Assembly (NCBI GenBank): GCA_013388675.1
Contig: JACAEW010000110.1
Span: 1-36,213, forward strand
Length of the DNA stretch: 36,213 nucleotides
Reading direction: 5' to 3'
Source of the DNA: Syntrophaceae bacterium
GTDB lineage: Bacteria > Desulfobacterota > SM23-61
Within the stretch, counting starts at the first letter, position 1. Each line of letters opens with the position of its first letter. The notes under the pieces were generated by a model that saw only the letters and a program-made list of their open reading frames with translations, did no database searches and was not told where the DNA came from. This document shows positions 10,698 through 29,376 of the stretch, piece after piece. The translations under genes were made by a program, and so were the position numbers.

Positions 10698-11599
10698 GAA
10701 AGTCCCTCTTTCAGGATCTCTTCTGCCGTGATCGCCTTGGCCCTGCGATTGACCCACCTGACCATCTGGGTAAGCACATTCCCCGGTCCAACTTCCACAA
10801 AAGTATCGATCCCATGATCGACCATCCGGAGCAAGACTCGATGCCAATGATTGGGCCGGGAGAACTGGATACTCAACTCTTCTTTGATTTCCTCCGGGGT
10901 TCTCAAAAGCTCCCCTGTCAGGTAACTAAGGACCGGAATTTGAGGAACGGTAACTTCCCATCCCTGAATCGCCTGAGCAAAAGCCTGCGAGGCCCTTTCC
11001 ATCAATGGGGTATGGATGGCCCAGCCGATGGGCAGCCGCTTGACCAGCAACGCCCCCCGCTCGATGCAGAGCCGGATCGCCTTCTCCACGCCTTCTTCCT
11101 GCCCCGAGATGACCAACTGCTGGGTGTTGTTAACCGAAGCCAAGTAAACTTGGGACGCCTCTCGGCAGGCTTGCTGGACTTCCTTCACCGAAAGGCCGAT
11201 GACCGCTGCCATGGCCCCCTTCTGCCTGAGCCCTTCCTCGGACATTTTTTCCGCGGCGATGATCACCCCTTCCAGACCCTGATCGAAGGTGAGCGATTCG
11301 GCGGCCACCAGGGCGGAAAAAATTCCCAGGCTGAAGCCGCTGGCCATTTGGGGTACAAAGCTCAACCTCTTGAGGATGGAGGCATAGGCACAGTTGGTTA
11401 CATGGACGGCCACCTGGGCATTGAAATCGAGGGAGAGCTCTTCCTCCGGACCTCGAAGACAGAGTTCCAGCAGGTCAAAGTCCAGAGCCTGGCTGGCTCG
11501 CTGAAAGCTCTCCAAGGCTTCCGGGTAGGAGGCCAGCTCTTGAACCATGCCGACCCGTTGAGACCCTTGGCCCGGAAAGAGGAACGCGACATCAGGCAT
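10664..11599 (-). CDS. FabD-like acyltransferase lacking the malonate-binding Arg
   Basis: 311-residue member of the malonyl-CoA:ACP transacylase family. FPGQGSQ is near the start, the nucleophile is Ser90 in SGFSLGIFSALV, GAMAAVIGL follows, His is in GWAIHTPLM, and the EVGPGNVLT ending is present. Two departures from E. coli FabD (compared from memory): the His before the active Ser is Phe (GFSLG, not GHSLG), and in a gap-free stretch between SALV and GAMAA the position of Arg117, which pairs with the malonyl carboxylate, is Ala. The active Ser, the His and the Gln in SIQFSRP are kept. It may therefore transfer or hydrolyse non-carboxylated acyl groups (inference). The start overlaps the radical SAM gene by 8 nt. 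The last ten or so residues come from an intergenic repeat. Confidence 0.85.
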   Translation of the reverse strand: MPDVAFLFPGQGSQRVGMVQELASYPEALESFQRASQALDFDLLELCLRGPEEELSLDFNAQVAVHVTNCAYASILKRLSFVPQMASGFSLGIFSALVAAESLTFDQGLEGVIIAAEKMSEEGLRQKGAMAAVIGLSVKEVQQACREASQVYLASVNNTQQLVISGQEEGVEKAIRLCIERGALLVKRLPIGWAIHTPLMERASQAFAQAIQGWEVTVPQIPVLSYLTGELLRTPEEIKEELSIQFSRPNHWHRVLLRMVDHGIDTFVEVGPGNVLTQMVRWVNRRAKAITAEEILKEGLSNAELGMRNAE

Positions 11600-12992
11600 G
11601 GGGTTCTCCGGTTGATATCGTCCGTCCGCGCAGGATCTTCATGTGTTCCCACAGAGGGCCTTTAACCCCGAATTTGCGCAGCTTGGACTGGAGGCGGAGG
11701 GAGACATTGATGCTCAGACCCGGAAAAATCCAGTTGGGGGAAAGAGAAGAGCGATGGCGGACAATATCCACCAGGCGGTCCCGCACCGCCGGCGCGATGT
11801 AGAACACGGGGTCGAGGAAGTCGGTGTCCGGCGACAGAAGGCCTTCGGCTTCGGCCTGGCGGGCCAGGCCGGTGCCGGGGAAAATCCGGAGGCCCACCAT
11901 GGCGATCACCGCCGTTGGAGCAATCTCCTCCATGAGCCGAAAAGTTTCCTCCAGGGTTTCATCCGTATCTCCGGGCGCTCCCAGGGAGAGACTGTGACAG
12001 ACTTCCAACCCCGCCTCGCGGGCGTAAAGGCTGCCTCGGCGGATGTCCTCCGGGGTGAAGTTCTTTCCCAATCGGGCCAGTACCGGCGGAGAGCCGGAAT
12101 CCGTGCCGAATTCCACCCCCGTGCACCCGGCCTGTTTCATGACCTTTGCGAGGGAGCGGCTGAAAAAAGCCGGGTTTGCATAACAGCTCCACTGAAGAGA
12201 GAGCCCTCTTTCGATGAAAGCTTCACAGACAGCTCGCGCATGGCTCTCCGGAAAATTGAAAATATTGTCCACGATGAAAATATTCCGCACACCCTGGTGG
12301 AGCAAGGCTTCAGCTTCATCGGCCACCCTCCGGGGTGAACGAAGCCGGACCGCCGTTCCTTCGATCAGAGGATAGGTACAATAGATGCAGGAAAAGGGGC
12401 ACCCTCTCTTGGTCTGGAGGTTGCCCATGCCTCCCTTGGCAAAATAGGCCTTCAGGTCCATGCACGTCCAATCCGGAGAGGAAAGGGAATCAAGGTTTTG
12501 AACCCAGGAAGGGCCGGACAATTCTTTGCTTTCCCTGGAGATGAATCCCTCGATCCGGGGAAAAGATGAATCCAACATCCCGCTCAGAACTTTGGGAAAA
12601 GCCTCTTCTCCCTCCCCCGCGATCCCCCCGTCCGCCTCCAGGAAGCTCAGGATCCTCTCCGGCATGAGGGTAAAACCCGATCCGCCCAAAAAAATGGGAG
12701 AGGAAGAAAATCGCCGGCATCGTTCGATTACCTTTTTAAAGAAAGGAAGGTAAGAAACGGATTCCGGATAAGCAACGTTGTCGATGTTGCGGAGGGAAAG
12801 GCCGATTGCCTGGGGAGCAAACCTGGAGATTGCGCTTTCGAGCGCCTGCTCCACGTCCTCTTCAAAACAAAGGTCCAGACAACAAACCTCTTGGCCGCAC
12901 GATTTCAGGGCTGAAGAAAGAAAAGCCAAACCCAGGGGGGCGACGGGGTCCGGCAGCATTTCGATATTGGGAGAGATGAGGAGAACGCGCAT
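11592..12992 (-). CDS. B12-binding-domain radical SAM protein
   Basis: 466 residues. The N-terminal part (1 to about 130) has the Rossmann-like layout of cobalamin-binding domains (MRVLLISPN..., GLAFLSSALK, FLGGSGFTL), but I do not see the DxHxxG base-off motif. The radical SAM core carries CPFSCIYC with Cys198, Cys202 and Cys205 for the 4Fe-4S cluster, then VDNIFNF and GVEFGTDSGS, both usual for this class. Such enzymes perform methylations, ring rearrangements or C-C bond chemistry on varied substrates. Its 3' end overlaps the acyltransferase start by 8 nt, so it is translationally coupled to an acyl-carrier module; a modification of an ACP-bound chain is a reasonable but unproven guess. 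No clear ribosome binding site: a family D repeat abuts the start codon. Confidence 0.85.
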   Translation of the reverse strand: MRVLLISPNIEMLPDPVAPLGLAFLSSALKSCGQEVCCLDLCFEEDVEQALESAISRFAPQAIGLSLRNIDNVAYPESVSYLPFFKKVIERCRRFSSSPIFLGGSGFTLMPERILSFLEADGGIAGEGEEAFPKVLSGMLDSSFPRIEGFISRESKELSGPSWVQNLDSLSSPDWTCMDLKAYFAKGGMGNLQTKRGCPFSCIYCTYPLIEGTAVRLRSPRRVADEAEALLHQGVRNIFIVDNIFNFPESHARAVCEAFIERGLSLQWSCYANPAFFSRSLAKVMKQAGCTGVEFGTDSGSPPVLARLGKNFTPEDIRRGSLYAREAGLEVCHSLSLGAPGDTDETLEETFRLMEEIAPTAVIAMVGLRIFPGTGLARQAEAEGLLSPDTDFLDPVFYIAPAVRDRLVDIVRHRSSLSPNWIFPGLSINVSLRLQSKLRKFGVKGPLWEHMKILRGRTISTGEPHA

Positions 12993-12997
12993 AAAGA

Positions 12998-13078
12998 AGC
13001 TTTCAGCAATCAGCTATTAGCAAAAATCCTTTTTCTCTCTTTTTCTATTTTTTTCGCTGACTGCTGATAGCTGATACC
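12998..13078. repeat. Inverted pair of family D repeats
   Basis: AGCTTTCAGCAATCAGCTAT at 12998 and GCTGACTGCTGATAGCTGAT at 13056 are near reverse complements around a pyrimidine-rich centre. The transcript could form a long imperfect hairpin next to the radical SAM start. Confidence 0.6.
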
Positions 13079-13205
13079 TTTTTTTCTCAAAATAACACAG
13101 GAAAACCACCTCGTCAAAAGGGATTTGGCCGGGCCTTGTTGCCGGGAGCTTTTCCCGTGAGGAAAAACAGGCAGCGGTCCGGTTTGGGTCCGAAGTATTT
13201 TCGGC

Positions 13206-13234
13206 TTGACTTTGCCGGATAGGGAATACATCAT
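13206..13234 (+). promoter_or_regulatory. Candidate sigma70 promoter for the acyl-CoA synthetase gene
   Basis: TTGACT (5/6 match), 17-nt spacer, CATCAT (4/6 match), about 60 nt before the ATG. Found by eye. Confidence 0.42.
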
Positions 13235-13297
13235 CGGGAATCAAAGAACCGGGACTCCAACGCCCCAGGAACCGCGATAAATTAGAGGGGAAAAAGA

Positions 13298-14719
13298 ATG
13301 TTTGAGAGGAAAAAAGAGGAAAATGCAAAAAATTTGACCCTTTTGTTCAATCCCCGCTCGATTGCCATCGTTGGGGCCTCGGATGATCTAACCCGCATCG
13401 GCGGATTGCCCATCAAGTTTCTTCGCCAGCACAAGTATCCGGGAAAGATATTCCCAGTCAACCCCAAGTACCGGGAAATCGCCGCTCTTCGCTGCTATCC
13501 CACCCTGAAGGATATACCCGAGCCCTTGGACCTGGCGCTGATCGGAATCCCCCGGGCTCTGGTTTTCCAGGCCCTGAGAGATTGCGCAGAAAAAAAGGTG
13601 CCTTTTGTCATCCTTTTCAGCGCAGGCTATGCGGAGATGGGGGAAGGGGGAAGAAAGGAGCAGGAGGAACTTCGACGATTTGTCCGGAGTGTTGGAATTC
13701 GGATGGTAGGCCCCAACTGCATCGGGATCGTCAATACCCATGATCGAGTGGCCACTTCCTTTACCAGCGGACTGGAAATCGACTCCCTGCTTCCGGGGGC
13801 GATCGGGCTGATCACCCAAAGCGGAGGGGTGGGGAACTGCATCCTCACCCGGACCTACGACCGGTCCATCGGACTGAGTTATTTTATTTCCTCCGGAAAC
13901 GAGCTGGACCTGGAAATTTCGGATTTTTTGGAATTTTTACTGGAAGACGAGAAGACGAAGTCCATTGCCCTGCTTCTGGAGGACCTGAAGGACCCTCATA
14001 AATTCAGCCAGGTTGCAGCGCGGGCCTGGCAAGCAGGTAAGCCGATCGTAGCCTTGAAAGTCGGGCGATCGGAAAAAGGTCGGCAGGCGGCCGCTTCCCA
14101 CACCGGGGCCATGTCCGGGTCGGATTCTCTCTATGAGGCGCTCTTCCGCCAAAGGGGGATTAGCCGGGTTTTCGATGTGGATGAGCTCTTCGAAGTGGCT
14201 CACCTATTTGCTTCCTACGCTCCCCCTGCAGGAAACCGCCTGGCAATTCTCACAACTTCAGGAGGAAGCGGCGCCCTGCTGGCTGACCTTGCTTCGGATC
14301 ATCATCTTTCCATGCCCGTCCCATCACCTCGGACCCTGGAGCAACTGCACGACGTGGTTCCGGCCGTGGCCCCCATCGCCAATCCCATGGACATCACCAC
14401 TCAGTTCATGAACGACCCGGAGGTCATCGCCCGATATATAACGACATTTGCGGAGGATGAAAATTTCGACATTTTGTTGATGAACTTCACCGTCTCCACC
14501 TCCGACCGAACCCTGAAAGTGGCGGATAAAATTGCCGCCATCCATCCAACTCTTCCCAAACCTTTGATTTTCTGCTGGCCCGTGGGAAACATGGCCCGCA
14601 CTGGCTTCGCCGGTCTGGAAAAGGCGGGTATTCCTCTCTTCTTCCACCCGGCCCGCTGCCTTTCGGCCTTAGGTCATTTCATTCGTTACGGCGTGCACCG
14701 GAATAAGCCACGGCGGTGA
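13298..14719 (+). CDS. NDP-forming acyl-CoA synthetase, alpha (CoA-binding) subunit
   Basis: 473 residues matching the alpha half of ADP-forming acetyl-CoA synthetases, which interconvert acyl-CoA + ADP + Pi and acid + CoA + ATP. The CoA-binding domain begins NPRSIAIVGASDD (about 18-30), followed by a succinyl-CoA-ligase-like part with MVGPNCIGI and ITQSGGVG, then ASHTGAMSGSD with the phosphorylatable His near 268. The ATP-grasp beta domain is absent, so it needs a separate beta subunit not found in this window. AGAGGGG precedes the ATG and a candidate promoter lies upstream. The stop overlaps the GTG start of the methyltransferase by 4 nt. In anaerobes such enzymes recover ATP from acyl-CoAs. 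Confidence 0.88.
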   Translation: MFERKKEENAKNLTLLFNPRSIAIVGASDDLTRIGGLPIKFLRQHKYPGKIFPVNPKYREIAALRCYPTLKDIPEPLDLALIGIPRALVFQALRDCAEKKVPFVILFSAGYAEMGEGGRKEQEELRRFVRSVGIRMVGPNCIGIVNTHDRVATSFTSGLEIDSLLPGAIGLITQSGGVGNCILTRTYDRSIGLSYFISSGNELDLEISDFLEFLLEDEKTKSIALLLEDLKDPHKFSQVAARAWQAGKPIVALKVGRSEKGRQAAASHTGAMSGSDSLYEALFRQRGISRVFDVDELFEVAHLFASYAPPAGNRLAILTTSGGSGALLADLASDHHLSMPVPSPRTLEQLHDVVPAVAPIANPMDITTQFMNDPEVIARYITTFAEDENFDILLMNFTVSTSDRTLKVADKIAAIHPTLPKPLIFCWPVGNMARTGFAGLEKAGIPLFFHPARCLSALGHFIRYGVHRNKPRR

Positions 14720-18148: not shown

Positions 18149-20326
18149 TCACCCTTTACCCCCCTTACCCTGCCCTCTGTCGTTCACAGGCCCCACCGGG
18201 CCGAAGCAGCCCATGACCGCTTTGGGGTAGGGCAGGTTCAGGGTGAAGGTCGTTCCTTCCCCGTTGTTGCTCGTCACCGCGATGGTTCCTCCATGGTTCT
18301 TCACCACCGAGTGGACGATGGAAAGCCCCAGGCCCGTTCCCCCCTCCTTGGTGGTGAAAAAAGGGTCGAATATTTTGTTTTCCATTCCGGGAGGGATTCC
18401 TCCCCCCGTGTCGCTCAGGCGGATGGTCACGTCCCGGTCCTCGTTCTGGCTCAGGGAAATCCGCAGCGTCCCCCCTCCGGGCATCGCCTCCAGGGCGTTC
18501 ATCTCCAGGTTCACGACGGCCTCCCGGACCTGCTCCGGGTCCACGCGAATGAGGACCTTCCCTTCCGGGTACTCTTTCCGGACTTCGACTCGCTGCTTGC
18601 GCGCGGGGATGGAGATCCAGTCCAGGGTCCGGTCCAGGACCTCTTTCAGGTCCACCTCCTGGAAGGCGGGCGGTTTGGGTTTGGCGAATTCGAGGAAGTT
18701 GGTGAGCATGCGGTTGATCCGCTCCGACTCCTCGCCGATGAACTGGATCATTTCCGACTGGACCGGCTGGGCCACCCCTTTTTTGAGCGTCTACGCCGAA
18801 CCCAGGATGATTCCCAGGGGATTGCGGATCCCATGGACGAAGGAGGCCGCCATCTCCCCCAGGGCCGCCAACTTCTCCGACTGCATTACCTGCCAGTCTT
18901 TCTTCTTCAGGTCCTGGTAGAGTCGCGCCCTGGAGATGGCCATGGCCACGGCCGGAGCCAGGGCCTCCAGGGCTTCGATCTCCATGATGGTGAAGTTCTT
19001 TTCGCCTTTCTTGTCCCCCAAAAGGATGAATCCCAGGAGCCCCTCCTCCCATTCCAGCGGAAGCACGAGGGAAAGGCGGGCTTCGTTCATCTCCTGGACT
19101 TCGGGCTGGAGGGCGCGTATATTCTTGACCATTTCCAGTTCCACCGCCCTCTCGGACTTTTTCAGGTAGGCAATGAAAGGGCTATCCACCGGGAAGGAGC
19201 GCTCCCGGGGAAGCCCTTTGTGGCTGAAGAGCCGGTAACAGTTGGATTCGCTCTCCAGGATCCAGATTCCCACCCGGTCGAGGAGCAGGGCCTGGGAAAT
19301 GAAGTTCACGGTCGCCCCGAGCAAAGTCTGAAGGTCAAGAATATTGAGAAGCGTGCGGGTGAACTCGAAGAATTTCAGGCGGAAGAGATACCTTTCCCGG
19401 TAGAAGAACCGGTCGATGAACTCCTCCACCTTCCTCTCCAGCGGCCGCAGGAGGAAGACCAGCACCAGCACCATTGTGGCTTCCACTAGAAGGGACGTGG
19501 TCTCCAGCTTCCTCGCCACGATGTCGCATACGTTCTTGACGAAGAGGATGTAAATGACCAAAACCAGCCCGGAGAGGAGCGAATACAGGATCCCGCCCCG
19601 GATGATGAAATGGATGTCCACCAGGCGGTATTTCACGATCGCCAGGGCGAAAAAGAAGCTGATGAGGAGTGAGTACAGGCTGGCCACGAAGAAGAAGGAA
19701 TAGCCCAGGTGGAAGAGATAGTTCATCACGTGCAGGATAAGCCCGATGACGAACATGGAGATGATCCCCACCAGGATATAGAGGATCTGCAGCCGCTGGC
19801 GGGCGATCTTCGTTTGGCGGTAGGAAAGGATGAAATTCACCACCCCCCAGGCGAAGTACCCCAGCCCGATCAGGGCCAGGATCAGGGCCAGAAGCTGGGA
19901 CTCCAGGCGCCCGTGGAAGGTGAAGACGTAATAAAAGATGGACCCGATCTGCACCACCCGCCCGATGTCCACCTCCAGCAGAAGGATGAAGGGCACCAGC
20001 AGCGCCACGGGGCCCGCATACAGGACAAGGCTGCGCCGGCCGTCGAAGAACCGGGTCAGCTTCTGGGGAAAGACATAGGAAAAATGGAGGAAAAAAACGG
20101 GGAAGAGAAAGACCCCGATGAATATGACCTTGACCCCCACCAGGGCCACGGAATGGAGGTCGCTGTTGATCATGATCAGCTCGCCCGCGTTCCAGGCCAC
20201 GAAGGAAAGGATGAGCAGGGTGAAGACCCGGTTCACCACCCCTTTGGGATGGTCATAGAAGACAATCAGGCAGAGGGTGAGGTTGATGGCGAAGGCTAAC
20301 GCTGCGGGGATGGCATAGACGCTCAT
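18149..20326 (-). pseudogene. 7TM-GAF sensor histidine kinase interrupted by in-frame TAG
   Basis: One reading frame of 725 codons broken by a single TAG at 18791-18793. Part one (511 residues from ATG 20326) has about nine hydrophobic segments (1-300, a 7TM-type sensor region), a GAF domain (about 325-465) and the H box FVHGIRNPLG with His498. After the TAG the same frame continues through the rest of the HisKA helix pair and a full ATPase domain: NLEMNALEAM (N box), DTGGGIPPGM (G1) and TTKEGGTGLGLSI (F/G2). The break falls in GSA-TAG-TLKKG, where relatives usually have Glu or Gln, so one base change explains it. Without readthrough the kinase has its His but no ATPase. The downstream half could start at GTG 18775. 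No response regulator is adjacent. Confidence 0.87.
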
Positions 20327-27075: not shown

Positions 27076-29376
27076 TCAACCATCTCCCGGGAGAATCATG
27101 GGCCTTGAGGGAGAATAGGGGGCGCTGATTCCCAGGGGCGGGGCCGAAGACAGGCGGATTTGACTGAGGCTGGAAATCAAATCCCCCGCCCAGCGGTAAA
27201 TGTTTTTTTCCTGCACCGCCTCTCTCATCCTTCGCATGCGCGCCCGTTTTTCCGCCGGGTCCATCTCCAGGGCCAGGCGGATGGCCTCGGCCATCTGCTC
27301 CGTGTCATAGGGGTTCACCACCAGGGCATCCCGGAGCTCCCGCGCGGCCCCGGTGAACTGGCTGAGAATCAGGACCCCCGATTCGTCCCATTTGGCCCCG
27401 ATGAACTCCTTGGCCACCAGGTTCATCCCGTCATGGAGCGAGGTCACCAGGCATAAGTCGGCGGCCTCGTAGAAGGGGGCGATTTCCCGGTGGCTGTGGT
27501 GCCGTTTCAGGAATACGATGGGCCTCCATTCCTTGGTCTGGAAGCGCCAGTTGATCCTTTCGGCTTCCGACTCCAGCAGGGCGGTTAAATCGCGGTATTC
27601 CTTGATGTGGGTCCGACTGGGGGCCCCCAATTCCACGAAAGTGAACACCCCTTGATAGATCGGATATTTTTCCAGGAACCGCTCGATGGCCAGGAAACGC
27701 TCCCTAAGCCCCTTGGTGTAATCGATCCGGTCCACCCCCACGCCGAGGTATTGCCCCCGGATGCCCAATTCCCGCAGAAGCGTTTTTTTGAGGCCTCCAT
27801 TGAGCGACCGGAAGGCGGGGGAGGGCTGGGGGGCGGCGATGCTGATGGGGAAAGGCTTCACCTGGGTTAGATGGTTTTCCCGTTCCGCGGTGAAATTTTC
27901 CCAATCGATCCTCGACTCCAGGGCCCGGTCCACGGTTTCCAGAAAGTTGTTGCAATGGAACTGGACATGAAAGCCGATGAGGTCGGCCCCCAGCATCCCG
28001 TGAAGGATCTCCCTCTGCCAGGGACAGATGCCGAAGGACTCGGGGTTCGGCCAGGGGATGTGCCAGAAAAGGGCCACCCGGGCATCGGGCCTCTTTTCCT
28101 TGATCATCCGCGGGAAAAGGGCGAAATGGTAATCCTGGACCAGAATCCAGGGGTCCTGGGTGTTTTCTAATTCCGCCAGGGTCGCCTGGGCGAATTTCTG
28201 GTTGACCGCTTCATAGAAATTCCAGTCTTCGGCCCTGAAGACGGGGCGAGTATGGGCGATGTGACACAGGGGCCAGAGGCCTTCGTTGGAGAATCCGTAG
28301 TAATACCCCTCCTCCTCTTCCTTGGTAAGCCACACCCTTTTCAGCAAGTACTGGGGGTCTTCCGGGGGCACCCGGATCTTATCCCCTTCGTCGACCACCT
28401 CCCGGTCGGCGTCCCCGCTTCCGTGGGCCAGCCAGGTTCCCCCGCAAGACTGAAGGATCGGCTCCAGAGCCGTCACCAGGCCGCTGGCGGGGACGACGCA
28501 TTCGATCTTTTTGCCGCGCCTTTCATGAACGTAGGGCTCCCGGTTGGAAATCACGAAGAGAGGCCTTCCCTGCAAGAGGGTACGCACGTGTTCGCGGAGC
28601 CTCACCGGGGTCCATAGAGACTCGGCTTTCCGCCGCAGCCGGGCCTCTTGCTCGGCGGCGGAACGGGCCTCGGAAATGCTTTTTACCATCCGGGTGGCTT
28701 CCCGGGCCAGGGGTTCGAAGACTTTTCCGGAAGGGGGCGGCAGGGTAACTCCACCCTTTTCGGTCCGCAGGGTCTTCATCCATTCGGCCATCCGGGCGAT
28801 GGGGTGGACCATGCTCCAGCGAATCACCAGAAGGGTGGTAAGGGAGATGAAAAGAGCGCTCACCAGCAGGCGGATGAAATTATTCTCCCAGATGTGGGCC
28901 ACCCGGTCTTTGATCTGTTTGGTTTCATAGACCATCACCATGGCCCCGGCGAGCTTCTCTTCATGGTAGAGGGGAAGGGCATGGAGGTACATCTCCTTCT
29001 CCCCGAGGGGAAGGAAATTTCCCTCCTCCAGGCCGGTCTTCATGGCGTTGGCGGCGAGAGCCGGGGGGGTTTTTAGATGGGGGGGGAGTTGGGCGCTGGC
29101 CGCGGCCATATGGCCCTTGGCGTCGTAGATGGCGACCCCTGCCAGTCTTTCCCGGTTGCCGAACTTGTTCACGATCTTCTGGATGGAGGAGGTCTGGCCT
29201 TTGGCCACCAGGGGCTCGATACTTTCTTTTAAGCTCTCCCCCAGAATGGAGGCCCGCCGCTCCAGATCAAGGGTCATTCTCTCCTTCTCCTGTTCCACCT
29301 GCAGGAAGGTAAACAGGAGGACAATCGCGCTGATTACGACAAAAATTGACAGAATGACGCGGAGGGTGATCCTCAT
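27076..29376 (-). CDS. Membrane-anchored sensor-HAMP-GT20 fusion, trehalose-6-phosphate synthase-like
   Basis: Start set at ATG 29376, with GAGGAGGAACCG directly upstream, giving 766 residues; the track ORF adds 29. N-terminus: membrane span (about 8-28), extracytoplasmic sensor-like domain (29 to about 170), second span, then a HAMP-like linker (MVHPIARMAEWMKTL). From about 255 follows a glycosyltransferase family 20 domain: SNREPY, HGSGDADREVVD, DYHFALFPRMI, HIPWPNPE, GVDRIDYTKGLRERF with the Arg/Lys phosphate-contact pair, and HDGMNLVAKEF with the acidic catalytic-site residue. The acceptor and donor sites look complete, so it should make trehalose-6-phosphate or a relative such as glucosylglycerol phosphate. 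No OtsB-type phosphatase is adjacent. The layout suggests osmolyte synthesis under direct control of an outside signal (inference). Confidence 0.85.
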   Translation of the reverse strand: MRITLRVILSIFVVISAIVLLFTFLQVEQEKERMTLDLERRASILGESLKESIEPLVAKGQTSSIQKIVNKFGNRERLAGVAIYDAKGHMAAASAQLPPHLKTPPALAANAMKTGLEEGNFLPLGEKEMYLHALPLYHEEKLAGAMVMVYETKQIKDRVAHIWENNFIRLLVSALFISLTTLLVIRWSMVHPIARMAEWMKTLRTEKGGVTLPPPSGKVFEPLAREATRMVKSISEARSAAEQEARLRRKAESLWTPVRLREHVRTLLQGRPLFVISNREPYVHERRGKKIECVVPASGLVTALEPILQSCGGTWLAHGSGDADREVVDEGDKIRVPPEDPQYLLKRVWLTKEEEEGYYYGFSNEGLWPLCHIAHTRPVFRAEDWNFYEAVNQKFAQATLAELENTQDPWILVQDYHFALFPRMIKEKRPDARVALFWHIPWPNPESFGICPWQREILHGMLGADLIGFHVQFHCNNFLETVDRALESRIDWENFTAERENHLTQVKPFPISIAAPQPSPAFRSLNGGLKKTLLRELGIRGQYLGVGVDRIDYTKGLRERFLAIERFLEKYPIYQGVFTFVELGAPSRTHIKEYRDLTALLESEAERINWRFQTKEWRPIVFLKRHHSHREIAPFYEAADLCLVTSLHDGMNLVAKEFIGAKWDESGVLILSQFTGAARELRDALVVNPYDTEQMAEAIRLALEMDPAEKRARMRRMREAVQEKNIYRWAGDLISSLSQIRLSSAPPLGISAPYSPSRPMILPGDG

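Follow-up and report, generated by a model that had tools for sequence, protein, structure and literature searches.

A WalK-type Cache-HAMP receptor fused to an OtsA-type glycosyltransferase in a Syntrophaceae bacterium: a probable receptor-gated trehalose-6-phosphate synthase

The characterised OtsA proteins are, to our knowledge, soluble. Bacterial Cache-HAMP receptors drive signalling outputs, usually kinases. The 2016 survey of Cache domains (PMC4822843) describes only signalling outputs, namely kinases, chemoreceptors, cyclases and others, and SMP_2 has none. The gene described here lies in a 36,213-nucleotide stretch of the genome of a Syntrophaceae bacterium (contig JACAEW010000110.1; hereafter the window), and its output is a GT20 glycosyltransferase. 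The component families are known; the pairing of such a receptor with a glycosyltransferase of biosynthesis lies outside the outputs recognised in PMC4822843. No description of a trehalose synthase combined with HAMP or Cache was found in the library searched, which lacks the majority of subscription titles, and the architecture may already be on display in protein databases.

The coding sequence starts with an ATG at 29376, a start residue common to most relatives. The encoded protein is composed of a first membrane span (TM1), a periplasmic single Cache domain, a second span (TM2), a HAMP domain, a helical linker and a complete GT20 domain, as follows.

27076..29376, minus strand: Cache-HAMP-GT20 coding sequence, 766 amino acids
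29382..29387, minus strand: Shine-Dalgarno sequence AGGAGG, 5 nt before the ATG
29293..29376, minus strand: first membrane span, residues 1-28, a hydrophobic helix that is part of a continuous helix (2-59) in the models
28891..29292, minus strand: extracytoplasmic single Cache domain, WalK type, residues 29-162 (profile, Foldseek, Pfam and NCBIfam matches of relatives)
28816..28890, minus strand: second membrane span, residues 163-187, a hydrophobic segment within model helix 153-205
28615..28815, minus strand: HAMP (AS1, connector, AS2) continuing as a coiled helix, residues 188-254 (conservation, kinase alignment, models)
28561..28614, minus strand: helical linker between HAMP and enzyme, residues 255-272, conserved, with W255 and L260 invariant
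27157..28560, minus strand: GT20 catalytic domain, OtsA type, residues 273-740 (Pfam, Foldseek, residue conservation)

The first-pass annotation had placed a fusion of a sensor-like domain, a HAMP-type linker and a complete GT20 at this position. The location is confirmed and the architecture well supported; the sensor is now identifiable as a WalK-type single Cache domain.

Since Pfam searches with the single sequence were silent on both HAMP and Cache, alignments of relatives were built, comprising 42 N-termini and 67 full-length homologues. Searched against the PDB, the N-terminal profile matched the extracytoplasmic Cache domain of WalK/YycG (5is1, E = 8.8e-6; 4ywz, 8.4e-5; 7dud, 1.3e-4). 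Structure prediction of this region, as the first-pass annotation had proposed, gave a Cache fold between two TM helices: in the AF2 models (mean pLDDT 82), the N-terminal half opens with the TM1 helix (residues 2-59) and a five-stranded sheet (78-151), which together form the PAS-like sheet and long N-terminal helix of a single Cache domain. Foldseek ranked a WalK model first (272 columns, E = 5.7e-12), followed by the erWalK crystal structures (TMt 0.76-0.80). Among the relatives, the NCBIfam HK_WalK model matched L041 (residues 2-246, E = 3.3e-7) and L003 (residues 2-199, E = 5.7e-6), and Pfam gave sCache_3_2, SMP_2 and CHASE8 matches on the N-termini. The profile match, the Foldseek result and the alignment with HAMP-bearing histidine kinases described below identify the sensor as a WalK-type single Cache.

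The Pfam HAMP profile (PF00672) gave no match on the window protein at its gathering score, and HAMP was therefore assessed through relatives, kinases and structure. Six of the 42 relatives gave sub-threshold matches to the profile, the best at E = 0.0048. The window protein aligns through TM1, Cache, TM2 and HAMP (residues 2-254) with histidine kinases encoded in other genomes of the phylum, and all four of the aligned kinases that were scanned carry a Pfam HAMP domain (E = 1e-13 to 1e-15). In the AF2 models, one helix comprising TM2 and HAMP AS1 (153-205) leads through a connector into the AS2 helix (218/221-251/254). In these monomer models, two amphipathic helices and a connector directly follow TM2, with a proline in AS1 and a glutamate at the start of AS2. 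Both residues are highly conserved among the 67 homologues (Pro192 in 62, Glu226 in 63), and W199, R204 and P222-L223 are further conserved positions. The lowest pLDDT of the structured part, about 55-67 in the monomer, falls at the junction between HAMP and GT20. The predicted helix-loop-helix, together with the end-to-end alignment with kinases, supports the presence of a HAMP domain, in line with the original proposal.

The enzyme half is complete. Pfam GT20 covers residues 274-738 (E = 1e-113, 381 bits against a cut-off of 32.5) and profile positions 4-472 of 473, placing the protein within the family, and the gene is the sole GT20 of the source genome. NCBIfam ranks PRK14501 first (473 bits), then OtsA (417.6) and GgpS (301), all below their own equivalog cut-offs. 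Because 417.6 bits falls short of the OtsA cut-off of 564.85, we file the gene as a GT20 of OtsA type and not as an OtsA equivalog, and the substrate identity therefore rests on residues and context. The model superposes on Mycobacterium thermoresistibile OtsA (5jio) with a Foldseek TMt of 0.87 at 34% identity. With the donor- and glucose-6-phosphate-binding residues of MtrOtsA as the reference set (PMC6879718), the equivalent donor residues R550, K555, D649 and E657 are present in all 67 homologues. The glucose-6-phosphate residues R279, Y359, D415 and R588 are likewise present in 67/67, and H417 in 66/67, the exception being a glutamine, as in MtrOtsA. These residues argue strongly for a trehalose-6-phosphate synthase, and from the active site and the gene neighbours we infer that the product is trehalose-6-phosphate.

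Upstream of the gene, the window encodes a beta-keto acid cleavage enzyme, and downstream of it lie genes for branched-chain amino acid transport; no trehalose gene adjoins it. The first-pass annotation had stated that no phosphatase is adjacent and had left product and fate open. The former is correct for the window, but the search that it suggested for otsB or ggpP elsewhere in the genome revealed one trehalose-phosphatase, unlinked to the synthase and C-terminally fused to a beta-phosphoglucomutase-type HAD (L113:2090-3661; T6PP equivalog score above cut-off), and in most relatives a phosphatase gene adjoins the receptor-GT20 gene. Since a phosphatase is encoded in the source genome, the product does not lack a metabolic fate, and the question is mostly resolved, with active-site residues and neighbours pointing to trehalose-6-phosphate and trehalose. 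A foreign origin of the phosphatase contig (the bin is 5% contaminated) was considered and rejected; the gene is native, because its orthologues are 92% identical in a genus relative and 82-83% identical in the family.

Several observations concern this second locus. In the genus relative with the 92% identical orthologue (G002, L127:31-5381), an MscS channel, the beta-phosphoglucomutase/trehalose-phosphatase fusion and an intact GH65 phosphorylase-type gene lie in a row, forming a cassette for making and breaking trehalose beside an osmotic channel. In the source genome (contig C19, L113:3658-4953), the phosphatase fusion is followed by a GH65 gene that is cut short at about 50 residues, where the sequence passes into an antisense gene resembling, by eye, uroporphyrinogen decarboxylase; this reflects either a rearrangement or a chimeric contig. 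The GH65 catalytic domain (PF03632) was not found elsewhere in this genome, and TreT (PF21269) and DUF5752 (PF19027) are both absent from it. A separate irregularity lies in the window itself, where a 7TM-GAF histidine kinase (18149-20326, minus strand) is split by a single in-frame TAG (18793-18791); the L003 orthologue (11242-13425) is intact at 727 aa, and the interruption is either a nonsense mutation or an assembly or sequence error.

Among the 64 homologous loci for which 2.5 kb or more of downstream sequence was available, a trehalose-phosphatase is encoded nearby in 40, DUF5752 in 31 and TreT in 32, and 52 carry at least one of the three. In the sister genomes L002 and L003, a convergent TreT-DUF5752(-phosphatase) operon abuts the receptor-GT20 gene. 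Twelve of the 64 loci bear DUF5752 and TreT with no phosphatase detected nearby; these loci, together with the score below the OtsA cut-off, would suit an enzyme that makes another phosphorylated glucoside (e.g. glucosylglycerol-phosphate) or uses another acceptor. We regard this as improbable, given that the GgpS score is lower than the OtsA score and far from its cut-off of 569 bits, that in all members scored the OtsA model leads the GgpS model by at least about 115 bits, that all glucose-6-phosphate-contacting residues are kept, and that the neighbours are trehalose-type phosphatases above the T6PP equivalog cut-off.

With a TreT-like trehalose synthase encoded near half of these loci, the phosphate route could be dispensable for bulk trehalose, and the protein layout mimics that of Cache-HAMP diguanylate cyclases. 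Trehalose-6-phosphate might then itself be the signal, made by the receptor-synthase and erased by the phosphatase, while TreT would be the main determinant of trehalose levels. However, no bacterial trehalose-6-phosphate effector was identified in the present analysis, and the source genome lacks both TreT and DUF5752, so that we give this explanation very little weight. Equally slight is the chance of the fuller version, in which trehalose-6-phosphate would be a bacterial second messenger synthesised upon an envelope signal, erased by the phosphatase and read by DUF5752 or TreT, while bulk trehalose comes from other routes.

DUF5752 is repeatedly encoded between the trehalose-phosphatase and a TreT-like gene (e.g. 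L003:9445-10164), and in L020:2567-4165 it is fused with the phosphatase in one reading frame. It is likely a trehalose-pathway protein; no paper on it was found in the library searched. As Sulfolobus acidocaldarius carries both DUF5752 and TreT, the Sulfolobus GT4-type TPS pathway was considered as the same system and rejected, because its TPS is a distant TreT relative without a canonical phosphatase. Other neighbourhoods differ: in an acidobacterial locus (L007:8201-10216), an alpha-amylase with a maltogenic-amylase C domain (TreS-like) directly follows the GT20 gene, and the receptor-GT20 genes of L026 and L038 are followed, instead of trehalose genes, by a dihydroorotase-like gene in both and a dihydroorotate dehydrogenase in L038.

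The survey of the architecture proposed in the first-pass annotation revealed that the fusion is not a one-off. A scan of the genome collection yielded 180 relatives, and most of the best 80 retained match end to end at 51-83% identity; by their record titles, they come from Acidobacteria, Nitrospirae, Nitrospinota, Elusimicrobia, Bacteroidetes/Ignavibacteria, Deltaproteobacteria and Methylomirabilota. The colinear Cache-HAMP-GT20 fusion thus recurs in dozens of genomes of several phyla. By a reading of the match tables, in which a full-length match had to begin within residues 1-6 and extend to about residue 740 or beyond, the fusion was counted in 12 of 99 sampled genomes of its own phylum, in about 11 of the 119 genomes sampled from Acidobacteriota and in 14 of the 100 from Nitrospirota, a share of roughly 10-14% in the latter two groups. 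In the GT20 tree, all 88 receptor-bearing sequences form one clade (support 0.997), outside of which lie receptor-less and C-terminally extended GT20s; this topology is consistent with a single origin of the fusion.

The same comparisons bear on the strongest rival explanation, in which the N-terminal part is an anchor or scaffold that keeps the synthase membrane-bound or dimeric, with no transfer of signal. Within the genus, the Cache domain diverges faster than the enzyme (62-64% vs 88% identity), it has no known ligand pocket, and sensor-less GT20 homologues exist, as expected of a mere anchor. However, a plain anchor would not need a folded Cache and a HAMP at fixed spacing, W255 and L260 of the linker are invariant, and the sensor and HAMP are present in 88/88 clade members. 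In addition, dN/dS of the window gene against relatives in the genus (Nei-Gojobori, with synonymous sites partly saturated) is 0.11-0.12 for TM2 and HAMP, as compared to 0.09 for GT20: HAMP is under purifying selection and is about as constrained as the enzyme. The Cache domain is likewise constrained (0.15-0.23). Anchoring alone is accordingly an unlikely account, though it deserves more credence than the other alternatives.

We consider it probable that the protein is a receptor-gated trehalose-6-phosphate synthase, a transmembrane receptor and enzyme in one polypeptide. Regulation by an external signal is suggested by anatomy and conservation. Direct signal control of osmolyte synthesis, which the first-pass annotation had put forward, is the best reading of the conserved fusion, the retained catalytic residues and the purifying selection on HAMP. 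The periplasmic WalK-type Cache would sense an external or envelope signal, and the change would travel through TM2 to the cytoplasmic HAMP and the conserved helical linker, where it may alter the activity or the dimer arrangement (quaternary state) of the cytoplasmic OtsA-type GT20. The enzyme is predicted to join glucose from a nucleotide-glucose donor to glucose-6-phosphate, yielding trehalose-6-phosphate. In the source genome, the phosphate is probably removed by the unlinked beta-phosphoglucomutase/trehalose-phosphatase fusion, while in relatives this step would fall to an OtsB-type phosphatase encoded beside the synthase. Trehalose, a stress protectant, would thereby come under fast control. 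The natural candidate for the stimulus is osmotic or desiccation stress, given that trehalose is a stress solute and that an MscS gene adjoins the phosphatase gene of a relative.

If true, this would give some bacteria one-step control of osmolyte synthesis from outside, without a kinase or transcription, and would make the enzyme that commits a cell to a compatible-solute pathway the output of a widespread receptor. As the fusion recurs across several phyla, a single protein may suffice for these cells to turn on a protective sugar. This yields a testable prediction of how trehalose synthesis switches on in Acidobacteriota, Nitrospirota and related lineages, and the receptor-GT20 loci offer a handle on DUF5752.

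Compared with known systems, the protein shares with OtsA (5jio; E. coli 1gz5) the GT-B fold and the donor and acceptor residues, but it is membrane-inserted, bears Cache and HAMP domains and scores below the NCBIfam OtsA equivalog cut-off. With WalK (YycG), it shares the TM1-Cache-TM2-HAMP module in both sequence and fold, whereas its output is a biosynthetic glycosyltransferase in place of a kinase. Cache-HAMP diguanylate cyclases such as DgcN/YfiN, a weak NCBIfam match to its N-terminus, similarly couple a receptor to a synthase-type catalytic output; however, the cyclases make a second messenger, while the window protein is predicted to make a metabolic intermediate. Finally, the bifunctional OtsA-OtsB proteins (PRK14501) are the nearest GT20s by NCBIfam score, and several sister GT20s in the tree carry a C-terminal extension of phosphatase size. 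In PRK14501 the fused partner is a phosphatase, whereas in the window clade it is a receptor.
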